36,037 nt of DNA from positions 1 through 36,037 of the forward strand of contig JAUVAX010000026.1 in assembly GCA_030591685.1 (NCBI GenBank), read 5' to 3'. Both the position numbers and the translations under genes were made by a program. Below are positions 1,865 through 21,484 of the stretch, piece after piece; the first letter of the stretch is position 1, and every line of letters starts with the position of its first letter. The DNA comes from Pseudobdellovibrionaceae bacterium (GTDB lineage Bacteria; Bdellovibrionota; Bdellovibrionia; Bdellovibrionales; UBA1609). The notes under the pieces were generated by a model. The model saw nothing but the letters and a program-made list of their open reading frames with translations. It was not told where the DNA came from and made no database searches.

Positions 1865-3520
1865 TTACGCCTTTGAGCTTTTACTTAATTCTTCTTGTAT
1901 CATGGTATCAAACTGTTTTTGCTCTAACCGCGTTGCTAGATGAGTATATGCGTTGATGGCTCTATTTTCTAAAACCTCTTGAGCACTGTTCCACGTAAAG
2001 GGTGTTTTTTCATTAAGTAGCGCCTCTACATTTTTAGAGTACTCAGGCATAACGGGCTTTAAATAAATAGCCATAATGCGAAACATATTTATTATGGTCG
2101 TTAGTATTTGTTTTGTTTTTATAGGGTCCGTTTTAATGAGCTTCCAAGGCTCGTGTTCGTCAAAATATTTATTGGCACCTTCGGCAATATCCCTGATTTC
2201 AATAATGGCTTTTGAGTACTCAAGGTTTTCAAAATGCTCAGCAATCACCTCTGATTTACTTTGCGCCCACTTAACCTTCTCTTGGCCTAAATCATCAAGA
2301 GTGCTTGTCGTGCCGTCGAGTTTTTTATTAAGCATTTGTGCCCCGCGAGAGGCCAGGTTAGTGATCTTACCTATAAGCTCCGAGTTTACTCGGCTTATAA
2401 AATCAGAAATATTAAGGTCAATGTCATCCACTCTGTTTGAGAGCTTACTGGCATAATAGTAACGTAAGTACATAGGGTCGACGTGTTTTAAATAAGTTCG
2501 GGCGTTGATAAAAGTCCCTTTAGATTTACTCATTTTTTCGCCATTTATTTTTACAAATCCATGCACATTAACCTTTGTGGGTAAATTATACTCGGCCGCT
2601 TTAAGCATTGCCGGCCAAAAAAGTGTATGAAAATAAATGATATCTTTACCGATAAAATGATGGATCTCAGCCTCAGGGTTTGACCAAAATTCTTTATAGT
2701 CCCTACCGTTTCGGTCACACCAGTTTTTAGTAGAAGATATGTACCCAATAGGGGCATCCACCCATACGTAAAAATATTTACCAGGGTGGCCGGGGATTTC
2801 AAAACCAAAGTAGGGGTCATCCCTTGAGATGTCCCAATCCCTGAGGTCTTCGCCAAACCACTCGAGCATTTTATTGTTGATTTCTTTTTGCGTATGCCCC
2901 GGGAGCCAGTCTTTTAAAAAGTCCTTATAATCATTAAGTTTAAAAAATATATGTTCACTGTCTCGTGTTGTGGGTGGGTTTTTACAAATAGAGCAATGAG
3001 GGTCTTTAAGATCACCTGGGGCATAGGTGGCCGCGCACACGTCACAAGAGTCCCCGTATTGCTCTTCGGCCCCGCATTTAGGGCACGTGCCCTTTACAAA
3101 GCGGTCGGGTAAAAACATTTTATCGTGCTCGCAATAGGCCTGTTTTATAGTCTTGAGTACAATGTGGTTTTTTTTCTTCATTTTTAAAAAAAACTCTTCG
3201 CTAAAAACCTTGTTTTCAGGAGAGTGGGTGGAGTAGAAGTTATCAAACTCCACTTGAAAGTCTGCCAAGTCAGCACTATGTCTCTCGTAGGCACCTTTAA
3301 TGAGTTCTTCAGGGGAGATATTTTGCGCCCGAGCACTAATCATTATAGGGGTGCCATGGGTGTCATCGGCACAAAAGTAACGGCACTCATGACCTCTCAT
3401 TTTTTGAAAACGGGTCCATATATCTGCCTGAACATACTCCAAGACATGCCCTAAATGGATCTCACCATTAGCATAGGGCAGGGCCGCAGTGACGAGGATT
3501 TTTCTTGGTGAAGAGCTCAT
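1865..3520 (-). CDS. metG: methionyl-tRNA synthetase
   Basis: Class I synthetase charging tRNA-Met. HIGH-type motif HLGH at residues 22-25 after the typical TAALPYANGEIHLGH opening; KMSKS at 329-333. A zinc knuckle is formed by C146, C149, C159 and C162, matching E. coli spacing, and a second Cys pair (C176, C179) follows, as in two-knuckle MetRS forms. At 551 residues it is the compact form without the C-terminal EMAP/tRNA-binding dimerisation domain found in the ~670-residue enzymes. The start is supported by an AAAGGAC Shine-Dalgarno a few bases upstream. It is followed closely by the SpoU methyltransferase, so two translation-related genes share a transcript. Confidence 0.96.
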   Translation of the reverse strand: MSSSPRKILVTAALPYANGEIHLGHVLEYVQADIWTRFQKMRGHECRYFCADDTHGTPIMISARAQNISPEELIKGAYERHSADLADFQVEFDNFYSTHSPENKVFSEEFFLKMKKKNHIVLKTIKQAYCEHDKMFLPDRFVKGTCPKCGAEEQYGDSCDVCAATYAPGDLKDPHCSICKNPPTTRDSEHIFFKLNDYKDFLKDWLPGHTQKEINNKMLEWFGEDLRDWDISRDDPYFGFEIPGHPGKYFYVWVDAPIGYISSTKNWCDRNGRDYKEFWSNPEAEIHHFIGKDIIYFHTLFWPAMLKAAEYNLPTKVNVHGFVKINGEKMSKSKGTFINARTYLKHVDPMYLRYYYASKLSNRVDDIDLNISDFISRVNSELIGKITNLASRGAQMLNKKLDGTTSTLDDLGQEKVKWAQSKSEVIAEHFENLEYSKAIIEIRDIAEGANKYFDEHEPWKLIKTDPIKTKQILTTIINMFRIMAIYLKPVMPEYSKNVEALLNEKTPFTWNSAQEVLENRAINAYTHLATRLEQKQFDTMIQEELSKSSKA

Positions 3521-3792
3521 AGGGGGTATTTGTCCTTTTTTTTAAATTTACGCACTTTTTAGCCCCTCCACTAACTGAAAGGCTCACTCTAAGTAACAAT
3601 TTTTGTAACTATGGTCCACGAATATACGCTTTTTGTCCTTAGTAAATACTGAAGCAAACTAGGGCTAAAATCAATAAAAATAAGTATAAACAGGCAGTTA
3701 CATGAATTCAGCCGGTTTCAACAGATCCTTCCCTCCTTGGCACTTTGTTTGCTTTATTTAAGCTTAAAGCCAGCCAATCTAAGGAGAACTAT

Positions 3793-4812
3793 ATGCGTAA
3801 ACATTCAGCCTCAATTTTTTTGTGGGTCCTATTACTAACCCCCGCATTTGCCTTTTCAGCGATTAAAACGGAGCTGAACTCAGAGATCAACAGTGCCATA
3901 AAAAAAGAAGCTCAGCTTAAAAAGAAGGCCAAAAGACTTTCAAAGCGCTCAAAAAAATTAAGAGCCCGAAAGTTAAGAGCCCAAAAATTAAACAAGAAAA
4001 AAAGACGAAGAGCCAAAAGAAAGTCTAATAAAAAAAGGGCCCGTAACTCCTCTGTATCTAAAATATCAGTTGCTAAAAAATCATCAGTAAAAGATTTTTG
4101 GGGTTTCACTTTCTATACAGAAAATTACAAGTCAGCAGCAGATCATGCGGCTAATTTATCAAGCTATAACCTGCTTATGCTTAAATATAATATAGACAAA
4201 GTGTCTTCAGCTACATTTTTAGAATCCTTTGTTTTTGACTGGGGTGAGTCTGGTACTTTTAGCCAAGGCGATGTGGCCTTTCAATATGATAGAAAACTAG
4301 GTAAAGCAGCGGGTTTAGATTTATCCACTCGTGCGAGGCTTTATGTGCCTGTGAGTGAGAGCAGCCAAGATTTAGGGCGCTATCAACTAAGGCTTTACGG
4401 TAATGCTGGTGGTGAAATATCCCCCATTTTAAGTTATAAATTTCAAACAAACCCTCGAATATACACGTACTCAGACCATGATGAGGGTCAGTTAACTCTA
4501 AAATGGATTAACGCGGCCTCATTAACATTAAAAGCCACAGATAAAATATCTCTAACAAGCTCTCTAGGGCACATTCATTATAGCAGAAACTCTGGGTTAA
4601 AGTACGAAGTCGATAAACCTATATATTTACTTGATGACCCGTATGATAATGATGACGCTATGTTCATTAGCCTTGAGGCAGGATTCGCGCTTGGGATCAC
4701 AAACTTCTCGCTAATGATCGAGCAGGAGAGAGACCTTAGAAGCTCAGAGTCTTCGTCACTTTTTGATGAGTCAGGAACCACATATTTTATGACCTTTAGT
4801 GTAAGCATTTAA
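3793..4812 (+). CDS. exported beta-rich protein with a strongly basic N-terminal segment (paralog of the next gene)
   Basis: The start at 3793 is chosen because AAGGAG lies at 3781-3786; an upstream in-frame start at 3745 has no such site. A signal peptide (MRKHSASIFLWVLL... ending near AFAFSA) is followed by about 65 residues made mostly of Lys and Arg (residues about 35-100), then a ~230-residue beta-strand-rich region resembling an outer-membrane barrel. That region is clearly related to the protein at 5122-6066: both contain a (R/V)xYxPxSE block, a P-R-(I/V)-Y-T-Y-S block followed by GQL, and a final LFDE..T-Y segment. The paralog lacks the basic stretch. It is monocistronic with a strong terminator. 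No database family recognised; the membrane location is inferred. Confidence 0.75.
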   Translation: MRKHSASIFLWVLLLTPAFAFSAIKTELNSEINSAIKKEAQLKKKAKRLSKRSKKLRARKLRAQKLNKKKRRRAKRKSNKKRARNSSVSKISVAKKSSVKDFWGFTFYTENYKSAADHAANLSSYNLLMLKYNIDKVSSATFLESFVFDWGESGTFSQGDVAFQYDRKLGKAAGLDLSTRARLYVPVSESSQDLGRYQLRLYGNAGGEISPILSYKFQTNPRIYTYSDHDEGQLTLKWINAASLTLKATDKISLTSSLGHIHYSRNSGLKYEVDKPIYLLDDPYDNDDAMFISLEAGFALGITNFSLMIEQERDLRSSESSSLFDESGTTYFMTFSVSI

Positions 4813-4868
4813 TAATTTTTAATTAAACACCACGCACCGCATTTATACCTTTCATTCGCTCGCTTTAG

Positions 4869-4898
4869 CCGACTTAGCGCACTAAGTCGGTTTTTTTT
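4869..4898 (+). terminator. Rho-independent terminator
   Basis: Perfect 9-bp stem CCGACTTAG / CTAAGTCGG with a CGCA tetraloop, followed directly by eight T. It ends the transcript of the basic exported protein gene. Confidence 0.93.
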
Positions 4899-5002
4899 AT
4901 AGTTTCTGCCCCTTCAGGCCCGATGAATATTAAATTATGTGACCATGGCTATAAGGGGCTCTTATGGCGCTATAAATATATAAGACAAATAAGTGTTTAT
5001 CA

Positions 5003-5031
5003 TTGATTGATGACTTTACTAGTTCTATATT
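5003..5031 (+). promoter_or_regulatory. candidate sigma70 promoter for the second barrel-like gene
   Basis: TTGATT (5003-5008), 17-bp spacer, TATATT (5026-5031). It lies 90 bp before the ATG of the gene at 5122, downstream of the preceding terminator. Located by inspection only. Confidence 0.45.
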
Positions 5032-5121
5032 GGCCCCAAAATTATGGCATTAAGTTTGCTTATCATAGCCTTAAAACAAATAAGCAGTGTCACTTTATAA
5101 ATACACCTCCGGGGGGGATCA

Positions 5122-6066
5122 ATGAAAAAACTACTACTAGCAGCGTTATTAATAAGCACATCGGTGTTTGCAGCAGAGAACAAGTCAAAACAAAAAGCCA
5201 GTGAGGTTAAAAAAGAAGCCAGTAAAATGAGCTTTAGTTTTTTATCTGAAGTTAATATAGATATGAAAGACATAAACAGAGGGCAAACAGACGCTTTATC
5301 GTCTTATAATGTTATTGGCTCTAGCTATAAATTAAATGAAAATGACTCTCTGGCTGTTAATCTTGTTTTTCAAACAGCTCGACCGAGCCTTAATTATGAG
5401 GGTGTTATTGATGAAATGGGTGTTGTTGCAAAACCTGGAGATAAAATTGATGACAAAAAATTAACGCTTACAAATACTCAAAAGTTTTCTTGGGGCGACT
5501 CTTATATAAAATACACTCGTGCTAAGTCATCCATTTTTGGTAAAGAGTACGTGGGCCAAATGCGAGTGTACTTACCACTTAGTGAACAAAGTGATTTAGT
5601 GGGTAAGTATCAAACTAGAGGGTATATGATTTTCTCTCAAGAGCTGAATAAAACCTTTTCAGTAGATTATATTATTAACCCAAGAGTTTATACTTATTCA
5701 AAAGATTCATCGGGGCAATTGTCTTTTATGGGGCTCTACTTAGCCTCTTTAAATCAAAAAATAAATGACTCGGTATCTTTATCTTATGCTTCGTATTTAC
5801 TTCAAAGGCATTATAATACAGGTAAGGCCCAGAGTTTAAGTGGCCTGAGTGCGGATGGGTCATATACAACTATTGAGTCTAAATACAGAGATGAGAACAC
5901 AATTTCTGAGATATACTTTAACTTAGCAGCCTCATTTAAATTAACTGACAAAGTTGGTTTTGATGTTTACATGGAGCAGCCTAGAAACTTTGCATCAACA
6001 AGTCGGTTTGTACTGTTTGATGAAGCCGATACTTATTATGGGTTTGTACTTAAAGCAAAACTATAA
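5122..6066 (+). CDS. exported barrel-like protein, paralog of the preceding gene
   Basis: 314 residues. A signal peptide (MKKLLLAALLISTSVFAAE, cleavage near residue 18) is followed by a short Lys-rich linker and then alternating hydrophobic/aromatic strands typical of a beta-barrel. Shared blocks with the preceding gene product include Y-L-P-L-S-E-Q-S-D-L-V-G-K-Y-Q, PRVYTYS..SSGQL and LFDEADTYYGF near the C-terminus, so the two arose by tandem duplication. The C-terminal residue is Leu rather than the Phe/Trp usual for BAM substrates. The ribosome site is unusual: a run of seven G (5111-5117) directly preceded by CACCTCC. Own candidate promoter upstream and own terminator downstream. Function unknown; outer-membrane location inferred. 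Confidence 0.75.
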   Translation: MKKLLLAALLISTSVFAAENKSKQKASEVKKEASKMSFSFLSEVNIDMKDINRGQTDALSSYNVIGSSYKLNENDSLAVNLVFQTARPSLNYEGVIDEMGVVAKPGDKIDDKKLTLTNTQKFSWGDSYIKYTRAKSSIFGKEYVGQMRVYLPLSEQSDLVGKYQTRGYMIFSQELNKTFSVDYIINPRVYTYSKDSSGQLSFMGLYLASLNQKINDSVSLSYASYLLQRHYNTGKAQSLSGLSADGSYTTIESKYRDENTISEIYFNLAASFKLTDKVGFDVYMEQPRNFASTSRFVLFDEADTYYGFVLKAKL

Positions 6067-6092
6067 ACTTATAAAAATTAAAATATAAATTT

Positions 6093-6124
6093 AAAAAGGG
6101 CCCTGAAATAGGAGCCCTTTTTTT
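6093..6124 (+). terminator. Rho-independent terminator
   Basis: AAAAAGGGC ... GCCCTTTTT stem with one mismatch and a short loop, running into TTTT, 27 bp after the stop codon of the second barrel-like gene. Confidence 0.85.
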
Positions 6125-6504
6125 ATTAAAAACATAGAATTGAATATTATAATAAAAACTTAAATTAAACCTCATCTAACGACCGGGTACTCACAGTGAC
6201 CCCATCTAAGTCATCTCATTTAATAGATGTTAAATGAAAGGGGACAAATAAACCGGCTCTAAAACAGCTTATTTGACTGCACGTAAAAGATTTTTAGTTG
6301 GGCTTAATGCCATGGATCTAAAAATACATACAAGCCCTTAGGCCCTTTTAGCGTATCAATCTCGCTTTTTAACAGGTCGTTTTAGATAAAAATTCCAAAA
6401 AAATAGTGTTAAATTTTCTAAAACGCTCCTCAAAGGGCTTAGCTCTTTGAGGGTTTCTTAACCTGTAGTAAAGGTAATATTAACAAATCATAAAGAGGGC
6501 ATAA
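6125..6504 (+). other. intergenic region with two hairpins ahead of the exported-protein gene
   Basis: No plausible gene. It holds a perfect 8-bp stem TCATTTAA / TTAAATGA with a six-base loop at 6216-6237, and a stronger hairpin CCTCAAAG ... CTTTGAGG (6428-6452, with an inner GC/GC pair) 52 bp before the GTG start at 6505. Neither is followed by a clear T-run. They may form the 5' leader of the next mRNA or the tail of an unseen transcript. Confidence 0.45.
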
Positions 6505-7548
6505 GTGAGAGTAATAATCCTGGTTTTAGTTGTTCTTATTACCTCAGATTTAATGGCTGCCAAGGGGGCAACCTGTTCTTCAATCTTTAAATTCACCCCA
6601 AAATTAACTCTAATTAAAACAGCCCCTAAAGAAAATAAATCTTTTTTTGATAAGTTGCCGCAAGTTGAGAAAGACCGGTTTTTTTCATTAACTCGTGAGC
6701 TATCCCCTGTATTAAGTTTATTTGATAATAATTTAAAAATGAAAAATAAAATCATCTCATACGCCACTATTAATGAGAGCTTATTTAGTATCATTCAAGA
6801 CATGGCTCATGTTAAAGACCTGGTAGATACTATTATTGAGATTAAACTTGATGAGGCAAACTTTGACGCCATTTATGCCGAAAAGCTAGAGCTCCTTAGC
6901 CAGCACGATGCGCCTAAAAGCACACCTCGGTTTAAAAATAGCAGCAATGTTTATGACTTAGAATTTTCAAAAAAGCCCCTGTCCCCACAAAAAGAGTATA
7001 TGTTAAGTTGGGAGTCTCGGAGTGATCAGCATATTAAAGCGTTTTTAGAGTTTATTGTAAACGAAACATCCGAAAAATTAATTCATGAAATTAATTTTGA
7101 GCAAGCTCTTGGTATGGACTTAGAATTAATTGTAGGCAATGCGGGTAACCTTTATAGAGTTCTCTCCTCTTACTTTGCGTTAGAAGGGCTTTTAAAGGCG
7201 ACCCTTTACTCGGGTAAATTGACAGAAGGCCCCCCCGCAAGCCGACCTGTAAATTTAAAGCTTATTAACGGTGACTATCAAAAATTATTAGAACTGGATG
7301 AGATTGTTTTAATATACGCCGCCAAATACACTTATTTTTCAAATAAAAGTGTACACTTGCTTTCTGAGATTTTTTCAAGCTCAGAGAAGTTTTATAACGA
7401 AGGTTTTATAGACGCAAAAGATCAACATGATTTACTTGTTTTACTAAGTAAATTTAATGCTTCAACACCTGAGTTTAAGATTAAAAATGTAAACACTTTT
7501 TTTGAAGGCCTGATCACTATAAATTATTTTTTAGTCGAACTTAAGTAG
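6505..7548 (+). CDS. exported protein of unknown function
   Basis: 347 residues from a GTG start with AGAGGG at 6494-6499. The N-terminus MRVIILVLVVLITSDLMAA is a signal peptide, with probable cleavage at AAK or MAA. The rest is mostly helical, polar and without recognisable motifs; a single Cys (residue 24) follows the signal but without a lipobox. The last 25 bp overlap tail to tail with the M23 peptidase gene on the other strand, so the two transcripts converge. No family recognised. Confidence 0.7.
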   Translation: MRVIILVLVVLITSDLMAAKGATCSSIFKFTPKLTLIKTAPKENKSFFDKLPQVEKDRFFSLTRELSPVLSLFDNNLKMKNKIISYATINESLFSIIQDMAHVKDLVDTIIEIKLDEANFDAIYAEKLELLSQHDAPKSTPRFKNSSNVYDLEFSKKPLSPQKEYMLSWESRSDQHIKAFLEFIVNETSEKLIHEINFEQALGMDLELIVGNAGNLYRVLSSYFALEGLLKATLYSGKLTEGPPASRPVNLKLINGDYQKLLELDEIVLIYAAKYTYFSNKSVHLLSEIFSSSEKFYNEGFIDAKDQHDLLVLLSKFNASTPEFKIKNVNTFFEGLITINYFLVELK

Positions 7549-8087
7549 GTATGTTTTTGACCCAACTGAGCCAAAGACCTAATAGAGGGCAAAAACTCTA
7601 TGGGGTTGACTGGTATTTTATTTTTTAAAAGTTCAAAGTGCAAGTGTACCCCTGAGGCACGCCCTGTGCGGCCCATTTTACCAATCAACTGACCCTGTGT
7701 AAGCTCTTGGCCTGTCCTAATGTGTATATTATTTAAATGAGCATAAAGTGTAGACCAAGCTTTTGTGTGCTGAATGAGTACCATTTTGCCGTAGCCTCTA
7801 AACCGGCTGCCGGCATATATTACAACGCCTTTTTCCACAGTGATTATTTTAGTTTTAAACGGGCCAGAGAGGTCAATGCCATCGTGAGCTGGGTTTTTAG
7901 GGGGTGCAAATTTTTGTGTTAAACGAGCCGAATCAAGAGGCCAAATAGGGTTAAAGTGCAACGATAAACCAGAGCCCTCAGTTTTATAATTTTTTAAAAA
8001 AGGTTTTGGGTCGCGCCAGGCCCCTTTAAAGGGGGTCGTGCACGAGATTAAGAGTAAAAATAATAGGTTTATTAACATAGTTTTCAC
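7524..8087 (-). CDS. M23-family metallopeptidase lipoprotein
   Basis: LytM/M23 domain at residues about 55-165 with the zinc and catalytic residues visible: H68 and D72 in HDGIDLSG, H117 in LYAHL, H148 and H150 in GVHLHFEL. All are present, so it should be an active peptidoglycan endopeptidase rather than an EnvC-like activator. The N-terminus MKTMLINLLFLLLISC is a lipoprotein signal with C16 as the lipidated residue, placing it in the periplasm on a membrane. The GTG start at 8087 keeps the Lys needed for export; an ATG three codons later would lose it. No clear Shine-Dalgarno. Compact (187 aa), without LysM or coiled-coil regions. Substrate not determinable. Confidence 0.88.
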   Translation of the reverse strand: MKTMLINLLFLLLISCTTPFKGAWRDPKPFLKNYKTEGSGLSLHFNPIWPLDSARLTQKFAPPKNPAHDGIDLSGPFKTKIITVEKGVVIYAGSRFRGYGKMVLIQHTKAWSTLYAHLNNIHIRTGQELTQGQLIGKMGRTGRASGVHLHFELLKNKIPVNPIEFLPSIRSLAQLGQKHTYLSSTKK

Positions 8088-8149
8088 TTTTTTAGTTTAG
8101 TACTAAATATAAAACATATAAAGTCGTGATTTTTTTTGAGCTGAGTACT

Positions 8150-9385
8150 CTACTTATAAATAGGGTACTTTTGGCATAAAGTTTTGACCTCTTCTTTAAT
8201 GTTACATAATACTTCTTCGGAGTTTATATTTGTAATCACTTTTTTTATCCAAGCCCCAATGGTCTTCATTTCATCAACACCCATGCCTCTTGTAGTAAGG
8301 GCAGGGGTTCCGATCCGTATGCCACTTGTAACAAAGGGGCTCCTTGTTTCGTTGGGGACGGTGTTTTTGTTCACTGTAATACCGGCCCTATCCAGTGCAT
8401 TTTCGGCCTCTTTGCCGGTGATGTTTTGAGCCGTAAGGTCAATTAATAGTAAATGGTTATCTGTGCCGCCGGTCACAAGTTGAAGGTCTAAGTCCATAAG
8501 AGTATCACCAAGTGCTTTAGCGTTTGTGACCACTTGTTGAGCGTAGGTTTTAAACTCAGGCCTTAAGGCCTCGCCAAAAGCTACGGCTTTCGCCCCGATG
8601 GCGTGCTCTAGCGGGCCCCCTTGTATGCCAGGGAATATTTTAGAGTTTACCTTTTTAGCATGCTCTTCTTTACAAAGTATAAGGCCCCCACGAGGCCCTC
8701 TAAGAGTTTTATGAGTTGTTGTCGTCACAAAGTCGGCATAGGGCACAGGGGACGGATGCTGGCCCCCTGCAACGAGCCCTGCAAAGTGAGCCATATCTAC
8801 AAGTAAAAAAGCCCCTACAGAGTCTGCGATTTCTTTAAATTTTGAAAAGTCTAATGTTCTAGGGTAGGCGCTATAGCCTGCAATAATCATTTTAGGTTTA
8901 TGTTTTTGGGCTTGCTCGTAAATAGTATCGTAGTTGATTCTATGAGTATTGGCGTCTAAACCATAGCTAACGGCATTAAATAATAGACCACTAAAATTTA
9001 CAGGGGACCCGTGAGTTAAATGCCCCCCGTGAGAGAGGTCCATCCCTAATACCGTTTCGCCAGGCTTTAAGGCGGCGAGGTACACGGCCATATTAGCCTG
9101 ACTCCCCGAATGAGGCTGTACATTTACGTGTTCGGCATTAAATAATTTTTTTGCGCGATCTATGGCCAACTGCTCTATTTCATCGACAAACTCACAGCCT
9201 CCATAATATCTTTTACCCGGGTAACCTTCAGCATATTTATTTGTAAGTATAGACCCTTGGACTTCCATCACTTGCTTTGAGGCATAGTTTTCAGAGGCGA
9301 TCATCTCTAACCCGTACTCTTGCCTGTAGAGTTCTTTTGTTAAAGAACTTTTAACTTCTATGTCAGTTAAGTGTTCGTAGTTCAT
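8150..9385 (-). CDS. glyA: serine hydroxymethyltransferase
   Basis: PLP enzyme converting serine and tetrahydrofolate to glycine and methylene-THF. The family landmarks are in place: LASENYASK near residue 30, [39 protein letters not shown] and the Schiff-base lysine in [14 protein letters not shown] (around residue 228). Full length at 411 residues. AAAGAGG lies 8 bases before the ATG. Upstream is rpiB, 126 bp away; that gap is AT-rich with a weak hairpin around the rpiB stop (9503-9518) and a small AACCC/GGGTT stem near 9410, so glyA may have its own promoter. The fabF-rpiB-glyA order is common in Deltaproteobacteria. Confidence 0.97.
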
Positions 9386-9511
9386 ATGGACCTCTTTTTA
9401 AGTAGTCACCCAAATAAAAGGGTTTTTGATTTTTTTAACTTAATATCTAAAAAAATAAATTTGTATTGTTATAAATAATTAACTTCATAAACGTAACATA
9501 ATTCTTTGCAT

Positions 9512-9952
9512 TCAAAGATCTATAGAGTTTTCTAACAAAGACACTCTTCTCTCATGTCGACCCCCTTCAAAAGGTGTTAATAAAAAGGTTTCAACAATCT
9601 GTAAATTATCGGCTTCTGGTGTTATTCGAGCCCCTAAACAAAGAACATTCGCATTGTTGTGTTGACGGGTCAATTGAGCCATTTCTGCTTGAGTACACAG
9701 AGCCGCCCTAATTAACGGGTACCTATTGGCCCTAATACTCATACCAATGCCTGTACCACATATAAGTAGCCCTAGGCTGTCTTTTTTACTTAAAACACTT
9801 TTACATAACTTGTCTGCAAAGTCTGGGTAGTCGACGCTTTCAGTGGTTTGTGGCCCTAAATCAACCCAGTTATAATTTTTAAATTGGGCTTGAATGTGTT
9901 TTTTTAACTCGACCCCGGCATGGTCTGAGGCAATGTAAACAGTTGGACTCAT
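9512..9952 (-). CDS. rpiB: ribose 5-phosphate isomerase B
   Basis: 146 residues, the normal size for RpiB (RpiB/LacAB family), which interconverts ribose 5-phosphate and ribulose 5-phosphate. Visible active-site elements: D10-H11 in ASDHAG, catalytic C65 followed by T67 in CGTGIGMSIRAN, the conserved HNNANVLCLGAR segment, and phosphate-binding arginines in GGRHERR. AAAGGGG precedes the ATG. It sits 15 bp after fabF and is probably co-transcribed with the fatty-acid genes. Confidence 0.96.
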   Translation of the reverse strand: MSPTVYIASDHAGVELKKHIQAQFKNYNWVDLGPQTTESVDYPDFADKLCKSVLSKKDSLGLLICGTGIGMSIRANRYPLIRAALCTQAEMAQLTRQHNNANVLCLGARITPEADNLQIVETFLLTPFEGGRHERRVSLLENSIDL

Positions 9953-18011: not shown

Positions 18012-18860
18012 CTAAAGGGTATAAATATAAATCTTACCATGCTTCATTATTAAAGGCATAAACACAGCCTTTCGCTGAATAAAGCTAATACTTAAATTAG
18101 AGTGAGGTTCAATATAAACCTTTGATTTTAACTTTATTTCTCCGTGAGCAAATCGTTTAGTCGCTCTTCGGTGCACCATCCCTAACAGAGCTCTTGCTAA
18201 AATTTTAGGGGTTAAATTACCGGGTTCACTGCCTAAAGCGTTGTATAGGTGAGAGAGTGTCTCCGCCTCAAAGCTCATCACAAACTCTGACCGGTAACCT
18301 GTGGCCTCGACTTCAAAAAGTATGTTAATTGCTCCAATAAAATCAGAGTTCATAGGTTTAGCTTCAGGAGGACCCACTTGTACAAGAGAATTTGAAAGTT
18401 TTTTATAAATATTTTTTGTGGTATCAATAAACACCTCAAAGCAGGTGGCTGATAGATATTGATCAGTACTTTTAAGTTTTAATTCAGCGCCAATAAGTTC
18501 CATAAGGTTTGAAAAATCAATCGGATGGTGCGCAACATTGACATTACTTTTTAAAGTGGTCAAGGTGTCGTCGGCCTCTTGTTGTAGAAATACTATGGGG
18601 GTTTTATTATTATTACCCGTATGACTAAGATTGCTTAAAAAATTCAAAACACCCTTTTCTTTTAAACATTTTTGCTCAGCAATTATATAATCAAAGTTTT
18701 GATTATTAAGTTTTTTTATGGTGTCTAATGAAGTATATGAATCTACAATGTTAACACTACTAGAGAAATAACTGTGAGCATAATGTGAAAAAATACTTCC
18801 AAGGTCCTTACCCTCGGATAAAACGAGAATAGCCTTTCGATTTGATACAACCCTCTCCAT
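18012..18860 (-). CDS. degenerate receiver + CheX-like domain protein (1)
   Basis: 282 residues from the ATG at 18860, preceded by GGAAGG; a GTG six codons earlier is possible. Residues about 8-125 have the secondary-structure rhythm of a CheY-like receiver (AILVLSEGKDL…FDYIIAEQKCL…PIVFLQQE…HHPIDFSNLMELI), but the phospho-acceptor Asp position is Glu (AEQ) and the conserved Lys before Pro is His, so it should not be phosphorylated normally. Residues about 140-282 resemble a CheX/CheC-like fold (DFIGAINILFEV...G), without the E-x2-N phosphatase motif. Related along its whole length to the next gene. Probably a regulatory or scaffold protein; function unknown. Confidence 0.65.
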   Translation of the reverse strand: MERVVSNRKAILVLSEGKDLGSIFSHYAHSYFSSSVNIVDSYTSLDTIKKLNNQNFDYIIAEQKCLKEKGVLNFLSNLSHTGNNNKTPIVFLQQEADDTLTTLKSNVNVAHHPIDFSNLMELIGAELKLKSTDQYLSATCFEVFIDTTKNIYKKLSNSLVQVGPPEAKPMNSDFIGAINILFEVEATGYRSEFVMSFEAETLSHLYNALGSEPGNLTPKILARALLGMVHRRATKRFAHGEIKLKSKVYIEPHSNLSISFIQRKAVFMPLIMKHGKIYIYTL

Positions 18861-18893
18861 TTTAAGAAACCTTCCCACATAAGATTAGTACTT

Positions 18894-18995: not shown

Positions 18996-19826
18996 TTAAA
19001 AAACATATAAGTAAAGATGTCCAAAGGCTGACTTTAGGGAAATACAAATGCCCTTTTTACCTTTAAGGTCATTTAAAACAGTATCGTTGGTGGGTACTAT
19101 TAATATTGACCCAAGACTCTCTTTAAAAAGGGTCTCGAAATGTGATTGAAGATTGCTGAAAATTATTTTAGTGGCAGCCTTCCCAACAATTAATGTAGAA
19201 AACTGATTACGCTGCCCTATCGACTCTGAGAGTTTTTCAAGTAATGAGCTCTCGTACATAAAAATAAAATTCGTACTCTTTTCATGAGTCTTGTTACTAT
19301 ATATTATCCCTGATTTACCCTTTAGGCTTTCTCCCTCAGGTTTTAAAATAGGGTTTTGCAAATCGGTAGGCTCAAACAAAACCTTAGATAAAAAACTGTT
19401 AGCAGATCGTGCAATGTCCTCAGAAAATTTAGACACACGGTACTGTTCAATGCCCTCTAAACCCAGTTGCTTGGAAAGCAAATCTATAAGTTTAAAATAA
19501 TTTACAGGGCGAACTGCGTTATGTACATTTTTATTTTTGGCTAAGCGGGGAGCACAGCTAGCCCCTTCGTTACTAATAAAAATAAAACTAGAGTCTTTAC
19601 TTTTAGGTAAGGCTTGAAGTTCAAAAACAAGCTTTGAGGGGGAAAAACCCTCAGCATCTCCGTCGGCTATGACAACGTGAAATTTTTGAATTCCAGCTTT
19701 TTTAATGGCTGAGTCCTGGCCAGGGGCGTGTATAGTTCTTGCTAGAGAGCCAAAGGCCTTAGCGATAAAGTAATCAATCAACTCTCTTTCTTTAGAGTCA
19801 CTGACTGTAACTAAGATATTTTTCAT
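18996..19826 (-). CDS. degenerate receiver + CheX-like domain protein (2)
   Basis: 276 residues from the ATG at 19826 (MKNILVTVSDSKE…); an in-frame TTG at 19847 lies inside the -10 region and is unlikely. The N-terminal receiver keeps an Asp at the acceptor position (FHVVIADGDAEG) but has Arg for the conserved Lys (VRPVNYFKLIDLL). The C-terminal half has the same plan as its neighbour and ends HLYLYVF against IYIYTL there. The two genes lie head to tail with separate promoters, so they are a diverged duplication. CheX phosphatase residues are not evident. Confidence 0.65.
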   Translation of the reverse strand: MKNILVTVSDSKERELIDYFIAKAFGSLARTIHAPGQDSAIKKAGIQKFHVVIADGDAEGFSPSKLVFELQALPKSKDSSFIFISNEGASCAPRLAKNKNVHNAVRPVNYFKLIDLLSKQLGLEGIEQYRVSKFSEDIARSANSFLSKVLFEPTDLQNPILKPEGESLKGKSGIIYSNKTHEKSTNFIFMYESSLLEKLSESIGQRNQFSTLIVGKAATKIIFSNLQSHFETLFKESLGSILIVPTNDTVLNDLKGKKGICISLKSAFGHLYLYVF

Positions 19827-19838
19827 ATGTGTCTCTGT

Positions 19839-19867
19839 ATAATACAAACTACATACCCTTCTGCAAA
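19839..19867 (-). promoter_or_regulatory. promoter of receiver-CheX gene 2, very short leader
   Basis: Minus strand: TTTGCA (19862-19867), 17-bp spacer, TATTAT (19839-19844). The ATG ends 12 bp past the -10, giving a predicted leader of only about five bases. Confidence 0.5.
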
Positions 19868-19995: not shown

Positions 19996-20538
19996 TTAAA
20001 GAATCAATCGTCTTAGCTCTGTTTGTGAGTACAGATAGTCCGCATATATCATTGTGTTTGTAACGTTTCTGTGGCCTAGAGCTACTTGTAAAAGTCGTAG
20101 GTCTTTAGTTTTTTTATAAAGGCGAATGGCAAAAGTATGCCTTAAACTATGAAACTTTTTATGAACAGGCCTATAGAGGTGCCAAACCTGAACAAGTCGA
20201 GAGTAGGATATAGGGAACATTAACCCTGAACATTTTTGAGGATCCAAAGAGCCCTTGAGCTGCAAAACGTGTTTAAATAACCATGAGGGCAGGGGGATTT
20301 CGCGATCATCACTGCCCTTGATCCCTCTTATATAGAGGCTCTCGTCGTACTCGTTAACGTCTTCGAGCCTGATATTAAGTAGCTCTGTAGCGCGCCCACC
20401 GGTGAGGAGTGCTAAATAAATCAAAACACAGTTTCTTTGATCTTGGTCAATAAAGCTGTCTAGTATATAGCAAAGCCTATCGTGCTCAGGCTCAACAAGG
20501 TATTTAGTTTTGTTTAATTGATACCTTTGTTGCCTCAT
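19996..20538 (-). CDS. single-domain tyrosine recombinase
   Basis: 180 residues consisting only of the catalytic domain. All active-site residues are recognisable: R49 (TGGRATELL), K74, H130-x2-R133 (HSLRHTFA), H156 (LGHRNV) and nucleophile Y165 (NTMIYADY). The N-terminal SAM-like core-binding domain of XerC/D or phage integrases is absent; an in-frame stop sits two codons before the ATG, so this is the full gene, not a truncation by start choice. FimB/FimE-type inversion recombinases are comparable in size (~200 aa). GGTGA is a plausible ribosome site. The gene faces a ~360-bp region of inverted repeats and a divergent HTH gene. It may act on those repeats. Confidence 0.88.
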   Translation of the reverse strand: MRQQRYQLNKTKYLVEPEHDRLCYILDSFIDQDQRNCVLIYLALLTGGRATELLNIRLEDVNEYDESLYIRGIKGSDDREIPLPSWLFKHVLQLKGSLDPQKCSGLMFPISYSRLVQVWHLYRPVHKKFHSLRHTFAIRLYKKTKDLRLLQVALGHRNVTNTMIYADYLYSQTELRRLIL

Positions 20539-20555
20539 AGGATTTCACCAATTTT

Positions 20556-20570
20556 TATACGCCGCGTATA
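20556..20570. repeat. palindrome TATACG-ccg-CGTATA
   Basis: Perfect 6-bp arms, 18 bp before the recombinase ATG and overlapping a TATAAA that could be its -10. Probable operator. Confidence 0.5.
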
Positions 20571-20648
20571 CCAGCCGAGTGGTGTGAAATAAAAGATAAA
20601 ACCCTCACTTTGACAAAGTTCATTAGTATAAAACTTGGCTACCAATTT

Positions 20649-20675
20649 TAAATAATTAAATAGCTTAATTATTTA
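20649..20675. repeat. 27-bp inverted repeat with 11-bp perfect arms
   Basis: TAAATAATTAA, five-base spacer ATAGC, TTAATTATTTA. Two 11-bp arms around a 5-6 bp centre is the architecture of XerC/XerD (dif-like) crossover sites, although the arms do not resemble dif sequence. Confidence 0.65.
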
Positions 20676-20693
20676 GTGTACTTAGCACTACAA

Positions 20694-20707
20694 CTTATAA
20701 CTATAAG
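20694..20707. repeat. palindrome CTTATA-ac-TATAAG
   Basis: Perfect 6-bp arms with a two-base spacer; it overlaps a second small palindrome CTATA-agc-TATAG at 20701-20713. Confidence 0.5.
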
Positions 20708-20819
20708 CTATAGCCTATTTTGATTTTAGGCATATGTCACCATGCATTTAATTTAATTCAATAAATCTAAATACTTAACTTGCCGCGTCTGATTTGGCGG
20801 ATGCCTTAAATATACATAT

Positions 20820-20858
20820 CACAACTATAAATATTGTGAAACACTGTATCAAGTTGTG
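20820..20858. repeat. nested inverted repeat CACAACT ... AGTTGTG
   Basis: Perfect 7-bp outer arms 25 bp apart, with an imperfect inner pair ATATTGTG / CACTGTAT, so the whole 39 bp is roughly symmetrical. Confidence 0.45.
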
Positions 20859-20882
20859 TTACGCAGCATGCAAGCAAGGTCG

Positions 20883-20906
20883 GGGTTTAATTATTTATAT
20901 AAACCC
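20883..20906. repeat. inverted repeat GGGTTTA ... TAAACCC just before the HTH gene
   Basis: Perfect 7-bp arms, 10-bp spacer, 17 bp before the poly-G ribosome-site-like sequence of the HTH frame. It could be an operator or a leader hairpin. Confidence 0.5.
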
Positions 20907-20932
20907 TCATCACCGACAAGCAGGGGGACAAA

Positions 20933-21484
20933 ATAGAAACCATTAAACCTAGAAAAGCCCATCTCTCAAAATATCAAAGGGGCGCATTACTTGATGCTCT
21001 TGATAATGCGAACCTTAACCAAGCACAAAACACCCCCCCTATAGCGCCTGATAGAGCACCAAAAAGTGCTTTAGGGCTTAAGTACGAAGCTGAGGTTCAG
21101 ATTATTACTGCAAAGCTAGGGGACTTAGAGCAAATCCGTACTAAACTAGGTGTTTCACGGCGTAAAATCTCACAATTACTTATGGTGGACCCGTCGGCTT
21201 GGACTCGGTGGTCTAAGCAGGGCAGAGCCCCCGCACATATTTATAGATCCTTACAGTGGTATATGGCCCTTATAGATAAGGACTCTGCCTGGCACCCACA
21301 AAACACGTTTAACACTCTTTCACGCTCATCTATTAACAATGAACTTTTGGTCATGAAAAAAACCATCCAACAACTACAACAAAACCTTAAAGCGCAAAAA
21401 CACACCAAATGGCCCCAAGCTTTAAGTTACTTTTTGGTTCTCTGTTTAGGGCTTTTAGGGGGCTTAGTTATTCAACAGCTTTAG
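20933..21484 (+). CDS. membrane-anchored helix-turn-helix protein with no canonical start codon
   Basis: The first ATG in this frame is at 21182, but that would cut a helix-turn-helix (LEQIRTKLGVSRRKISQLLM, then DPSAWTRWSKQGRAP) in half. The frame is open back to a stop at 20900-20902 and codes for protein-like sequence (KPRKAHLSKYQRGALLDAL…). No ATG, GTG or TTG occurs between 20903 and 21181. The best candidate is ATA at 20933, five bases after GGGGG (20923-20927); ATT at 20942 is another. From 20933 the product is 183 residues: HTH at about 64-100, a coiled-coil-like stretch, and a C-terminal membrane helix (YFLVLCLGLLGGLVI) with a two-residue-plus tail. Alternatively an ATG at 20994 in another frame joins by a -1 slip at the C7 run near 21032, or the gene is damaged. 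Confidence 0.55.
   Translation: METIKPRKAHLSKYQRGALLDALDNANLNQAQNTPPIAPDRAPKSALGLKYEAEVQIITAKLGDLEQIRTKLGVSRRKISQLLMVDPSAWTRWSKQGRAPAHIYRSLQWYMALIDKDSAWHPQNTFNTLSRSSINNELLVMKKTIQQLQQNLKAQKHTKWPQALSYFLVLCLGLLGGLVIQQL

Follow-up and report, generated by a model that had tools for sequence, protein, structure and literature searches.

The stretch of DNA analyzed here (the window) was a contig of 36,037 nucleotides from a Pseudobdellovibrionaceae bacterium whose source assembly comprised 2.66 Mb in 98 contigs. Near its middle, a gene for a minimal tyrosine recombinase and a gene for an HTH protein face away from each other across an intergenic region that contains two adjoining palindromes, one of them an imperfect palindrome of 28 bp (Table 1). 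In a profile search the recombinase was assigned to the Pfam family Phage_integrase at 69.6 bits, and R49, K74, H130, R133, H156 and Y165 showed no variation across 36 orthologues. Its AF2 model (pLDDT 90.5) was a lone catalytic domain without a core-binding domain, which together with the Pfam match and the invariant residues bore out the original prediction of a 180-residue tyrosine recombinase that possesses all six catalytic residues and lacks the core-binding domain. The orthologues ranged from 173 to 205 amino acids and likewise consisted of the catalytic domain only. XerA (5hxy) was the top Foldseek match of the model, with the catalytic domain of XerH also among the best, and the XerA model of NCBIfam gave the best score as well, at 66.9 bits far under the family cut-off of 220. 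Scores against the NCBIfam models for XerD (54.1 bits; cut-off, 329.6), XerC (49.6 bits; cut-off, 335.15) and the integron integrase, integrase_gron (51.9 bits; cut-off, 265), were likewise too low for membership in any of these families. In the tree, the recombinase was placed apart from the XerC and XerD encoded in the same genome (support, 100/99). Searches of phage and plasmid collections returned only distant integrases, with at most ~34% identity among the matches listed, and a query of IMG/VR returned no relatives of the recombinase. Four flanking ORFs in the window had no Pfam match above the cut-off. Two neighboring proteins beside the recombinase (encoded at 18012-18878 and 18996-19847) are similar in length and without a convincing Pfam match; they look paralogous, perhaps with a receiver-like N-terminal part.

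Table 1. Positions of the genes and sequence features at the locus and of the phage-like elements in related genomes
Feature	Position	Strand	Basis or remark
Minimal tyrosine recombinase of 180 aa, consisting of the catalytic domain alone	19996..20538	-	Pfam PF00589, AF2, Foldseek, orthologues
AT-rich perfect palindrome, 27 bp, flagged in the original prediction	20649..20675	.	Only in this window; role perhaps none
Conserved recombinase-side flank of the 28-bp site	20676..20686	-	GCTAAGTACAC in the window, YTAAGTA in relatives; alignment of 66 variants
28-bp recombination site, GCTATAGCTTA-TAGTTA-TAAGTTGTAGT	20687..20714	-	Conservation, arm covariation, insertions at the center
Arms of the 28-bp site	20704-20714 and 20687-20697, center 20698-20703	-	
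Conserved HTH-side flank of the 28-bp site	20715..20727	-	TTTCAAAAT-type block in relatives, AAAATCAAAATAG-like in the window
Array of TTGTG/CACAA-type repeats (about three) ahead of the HTH gene	20820..20866	+	Recur at the same place in relatives
Tail-anchored HTH protein of ~183 aa, with an HTH domain, a helical linker and a C-terminal membrane helix	20933..21484	+	Likely ATA start at 20933
Phage-like elements of ~9.4 kb	L088 5472-14945 and L089 4776-14164		Inserted at the 28-bp site
Third element of the ~9.4-kb family, genome G009	L186 ~1884-9637		Integrated elsewhere than the 28-bp site

The HTH gene required correction at its 5' end. The conserved HTH domain starts upstream of the ATG at 21182, so the listed ORF is too short, and the frame ahead of that ATG contains no ATG, GTG or TTG. 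An ATA at 20933-20935, with AGGGGG ahead of it, aligns with the conserved Met-Glu start of the relatives and is probably the start codon of the gene; relatives have ATG at this position, and the ATA could be a sequence error. Of the divergent HTH protein as originally described, the orientation and the C-terminal membrane helix were retained, while its length was revised from 100 to ~183 residues; on the corrected start, the distance between the two genes becomes ~394 bp. Among 60 distinct HTH homologues, 51 passed a strict hydrophobicity threshold for the C-terminal membrane helix and two more came close, and six (f5 and some relatives) possessed a Lys/Arg-rich tail instead. In the HTH proteins of L097, L099, L100, L123, L133 and L141, the tail that replaces the membrane anchor is long and histone-like. 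The model of the HTH protein had no significant match in the PDB, where only weak Xre/Aca1-like matches were obtained. The array of TTGTG/CACAA-type repeats is, judged by its position and recurrence, probably the operator of the HTH protein. Elsewhere in the genomes such repeats were scattered and occurred at about the rate of the reversed-pattern control. A MatP-like terminus organizer was ruled out, since the operator motif does not recur across the terminus region.

The intergenic region had been described as containing at least six palindromes, of which the 27-bp repeat with its 11-bp arms and 5-bp center was said to have the geometry of a Xer-type crossover site. This palindrome exists, and it is unlikely to have arisen by chance: an arm of at least 11 bp arises in 0.8% of dinucleotide shuffles, and the chance expectation for the palindrome in the window is 0.01 matches. 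When arms of 8 bp or more and a loop no longer than 8 bp are required, it is also the sole perfect inverted repeat of the region, so that the count of six is reached only when far shorter repeats are included. The 27-bp palindrome was present in just 1 of 66 distinct recombinase-side flanks, with no relative sharing it, and this absence of conservation ruled out a crossover role. What is kept with the gene pair is instead the imperfect palindrome that adjoins it. An Rfam search gave no match.

The conserved 28-bp site has a layout of 11+6+11, as in dif, and its consensus on the recombinase strand was ACTATAGCTTA-TAGTTA-TAAGCTATAGT. Across 65 variants the inner arms were near-invariant, and the outer arm positions varied in step on both sides. 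The top three mutual-information column pairs of the whole site were mirror pairs, and mirror-pair complementarity was 0.78 to 0.83 versus an expected 0.41 to 0.48, with slid controls near expectation. This mirror covariation, which partly includes G-T pairs on the recombinase strand, fits one protein recognizing both arms. The central GT reads AC in 6 of the 65 variants (L026, L096, L021, L035, L030 and L029), as if the center were reversed with the orientation of the flanks unchanged. Of 132 recombinase loci (several of them from the same genome), 121 had the site no more than 1.5 kb from the gene and in one orientation relative to it throughout; in the other 11 it is farther off or split. 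In most loci it lies 50 to 300 bp upstream of the recombinase gene, and in a few genomes several kilobases separate the two, with the site still beside the HTH gene. A genome-wide pattern search recovered one site locus per genome, with few exceptions, against 0 to 1 for the reversed-pattern control. The site was undetectable at three loci at which the recombinase is lost or truncated (L190 to L192) and in genus g44, which has no gene pair. As a pattern match alone, the short site pattern CTTATAGTTATAAGNNNNAG was matched in 19 viral contigs of IMG/VR (L147 to L165).

Recombinase orthologues were present in ~95 and HTH homologues in 99 of the 141 genomes of the order. Among 103 good genomes, in which co-occurrence was counted by hand, 79 possessed both genes, 18 neither and 6 one alone (Fisher P = 3e-14), most mismatches being contig ends. 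The two therefore form a conserved divergent pair in the order, and the recombinase does not sit alone in relatives; judged from the genomes, the link between them is a genetic association. The better conserved of the two proteins is the recombinase, with 57 to 66% identity between the orthologues and the window protein, compared to 23 to 42% for the HTH homologues. The module was found in nearly all full-sized Bdellovibrionales genomes, including that of the model predator B. bacteriovorus. The recombinase was absent from genus g44 and from small, reduced genomes; since these have lost the pair, with g44 keeping a dif-like site, the pair is not indispensable. At least two genomes (G128 and G133) have kept the HTH protein but not the recombinase. 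Outside the order, three genomes from a single additional family of the class possessed the recombinase, and it was found nowhere else in the phylum as sampled. In many families a fabG-fabD-fabH/DUF177 cluster occurs on the side of the recombinase, and the fabG/D/H side of the window is chromosomal and syntenic; this synteny indicated vertical inheritance of the pair.

Evidence on the use of the site came from phage-like elements of ~9.4 kb, which split it exactly at its center in two genomes of different genera (G006 and G039). The sequence TAGTTATA was common to both element junctions in G006 and likewise in G039. When the flanks were joined, those of G006 gave an intact site as in the uninterrupted relative G009, and those of G039 gave a perfect palindrome. 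About 10 genes, including those for a transglycosylase and a packaging-type ATPase, are common to these two elements and the third one in G009, and the elements encode their own recombinase, kin to that of the host. The capsid candidate of the elements had no PDB, Pfam or solid PHROG match, and a double-jelly-roll identity for it is a guess; IMG/VR returned no relatives of either the capsid candidate or the element recombinase. Because the elements sit exactly in the center in two genera, these sequences identify the 28-bp site as a true crossover site, whose center serves such recombinases as the point of exchange. Use of the same site by the host enzyme is what we infer from the adjacency of its gene and from the loss of both together. 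Recombination by the module is well supported by the comparison of genomes. The broader prediction of a self-contained module for site-specific recombination, with a DNA-binding partner anchored in the membrane, was supported as well.

In most of the complete genomes with dnaA placed, the locus lies about half-way round the chromosome (the exceptions being G011, G014 and G023). In the 30 genomes that have the site and a canonical dif on one contig, the distance between the two, reckoned by hand, had a median of 12 kb and was within 20 kb in 28; within the window itself, no canonical dif was found. The dif of G004 is at the coordinate published for B. bacteriovorus HD100 (PMC2731167), and in this genome 12 kb separate the 28-bp site from dif and 6 kb separate it from the GC-skew peak. 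Across four genomes, the distance between the site and the local GC-skew peak was 6 to 12 kb, and in all four the peak was nearer to dif than to the 28-bp site, so that dif remains likely the main site. XerC and XerD homologues were found in 13 of 13 genomes tested, and canonical dif in most of the order. Since XerC, XerD and a conserved dif are also present, with dif nearer the skew peak, the usual job of dimer resolution is already owned. Each of five genomes (G000, G004, G005, G045 and G098) possessed only one GyrA/ParC-type subunit, encoded near dnaA in the complete ones, and topoisomerase IV appears to be absent from all five. No link between this absence and the module was shown, because G045, which is without the module, also has a single subunit.

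We lean toward interpreting the locus as a dif-like site-specific recombination module that works with a single recombinase at the chromosome terminus, additional to and separate from XerCD/dif. At the level of sequence, the analysis established the recombinase and the site, the linkage and co-conservation of the two, the center as the crossover point, the single copy, the location at the terminus and the membrane anchors. The purpose of such a module would be dimer resolution or sister unlinking, with gating by the HTH protein. Each 11-bp arm of the 28-bp site would be bound by one of two recombinase monomers, and two sites, either on sister chromosomes or on the halves of a chromosome dimer, would pair in the terminus at division; strand exchange across the 6-bp center TAGTTA would then resolve dimers or unlink sisters. 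The divergent HTH protein, bound to the operator array 100 to 150 bp from the site, would tether the locus to the inner membrane, and the tether could confine recombination to the right place or steady the synapse of a recombinase that has no core-binding clamp domain. More tentatively, and somewhat short of being probable, two parallel systems may operate at the terminus: XerCD/dif and, ~12 kb off, the minimal recombinase with its own dif-like site, gated by a DNA-binding protein that is membrane-tethered or, in some clades, Lys/Arg-rich-tailed. Such a second system would perhaps resolve or unlink the numerous sister chromosomes that multi-nucleoid filaments contain, the order being seemingly without topoisomerase IV.

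Other explanations were weighed against this one. It is rather unlikely that the locus is a domesticated integrase module, that is, an ancient int-att-repressor unit of a phage or plasmid that became fixed in the ancestor and was retained for a use other than chromosome resolution, for example to occupy the preferred attachment site, to regulate excision or to keep out related phages. The order of integrase, site and HTH gene does resemble the int-att-repressor block of temperate phages, and phage-like elements with kindred recombinases integrate at the same 28-bp site; however, most genomes had no phage genes at the host locus, the site has remained a palindrome close to the terminus in different families, and the synteny indicates long vertical descent. 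A purely regulatory palindrome, acting as an autoregulatory operator of the divergent genes or as an RNA hairpin upstream of the recombinase, would suit the short distance to the recombinase gene in most loci and the G-T pairs in part of the covariation, but we regard it as improbable given that insertions in different genera cut exactly at the center, that the 11+6+11 geometry and near-invariant inner arms suit a recombinase site, and that in a few genomes the site is several kilobases from the recombinase gene and beside the HTH gene. We give equally little credence to the view that the HTH protein anchors or organizes the terminus, with the recombinase minor or ancestral; this would accord with the terminus position of the locus and with the membrane anchor of most homologues and the Lys/Arg-rich tail of others, but the operator-like repeats were not enriched around the terminus, and it is the recombinase that is better conserved. 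Finally, although FimB and FimE are also small recombinases without a core-binding domain and of like size, these minimal invertases invert DNA between two sites, and a FimB-type phase-variation switch acting on inverted repeats near the gene, as originally suggested, is highly improbable here, where no pair of inverted sites around an invertible segment was found, there is one site per genome with the same orientation in 121 of 121 loci, and scores to invertase models were weak (34.6 and 31.6 bits versus cut-offs of 221 and 222).

Considered as a dif-like module of the terminus, the locus shares with the single-recombinase dif/Xer systems a two-arm site of 28 to 31 bp with a short center, a single copy near the terminus and a gene linked to the site. 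Two other features of these systems, namely, being the sole Xer system of the genome and possessing a two-domain (core-binding plus catalytic) recombinase, were not found, and on this account the module is set apart from the XerS/XerH/XerL family. XerH/difH of Helicobacter and Campylobacter and XerS/difSL of streptococci and lactococci likewise consist of one recombinase and a dif-like site beside its gene at the terminus. XerH and XerS are two-domain proteins of ~350 to 360 amino acids and the only Xer of their genomes (PMC5357621, PMC2731167), whereas the Bdellovibrionales enzyme has ~180 amino acids and the catalytic domain only, occurs beside XerC, XerD and dif, and has a membrane-anchored HTH partner. 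XerL/dif of the Legionellales is a close parallel, as it is also an order-wide, single-recombinase system with a strongly palindromic near-terminus site and was also noticed via an integrating mobile element (PMC9765430). XerL is at least ~390 amino acids long (catalytic Tyr387), its gene is >400 kb from dif in L. pneumophila, and no other Xer is known in the Legionellales (PMC9765430). Archaeal XerA/dif likewise combines a single recombinase with a 28-bp site, and XerA is the best match in both Foldseek and NCBIfam; it has the N-terminal core-binding domain that the Bdellovibrionales recombinase, far below the XerA cut-off, is without. Mobile elements use the terminus site both here and in the case of the IMEX elements at dif, but IMEX borrow XerCD, whereas the ~9.4-kb elements bring their own recombinase.

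To our knowledge, the chromosomal dif/Xer systems known so far are one per genome. No description of a second terminus module in the Bdellovibrionales was found in the literature searched, and a second terminus recombination module has apparently not been described before; a review of non-binary division names only xerCD, dif and FtsK (PMC11318664). In the Bdellovibrionales, the 28-bp site offers phage-like elements a natural attachment site, and the module provides a directly testable site, recombinase and membrane partner. An order-wide second module would be relevant to the resolution of multi-chromosome filaments during non-binary division.
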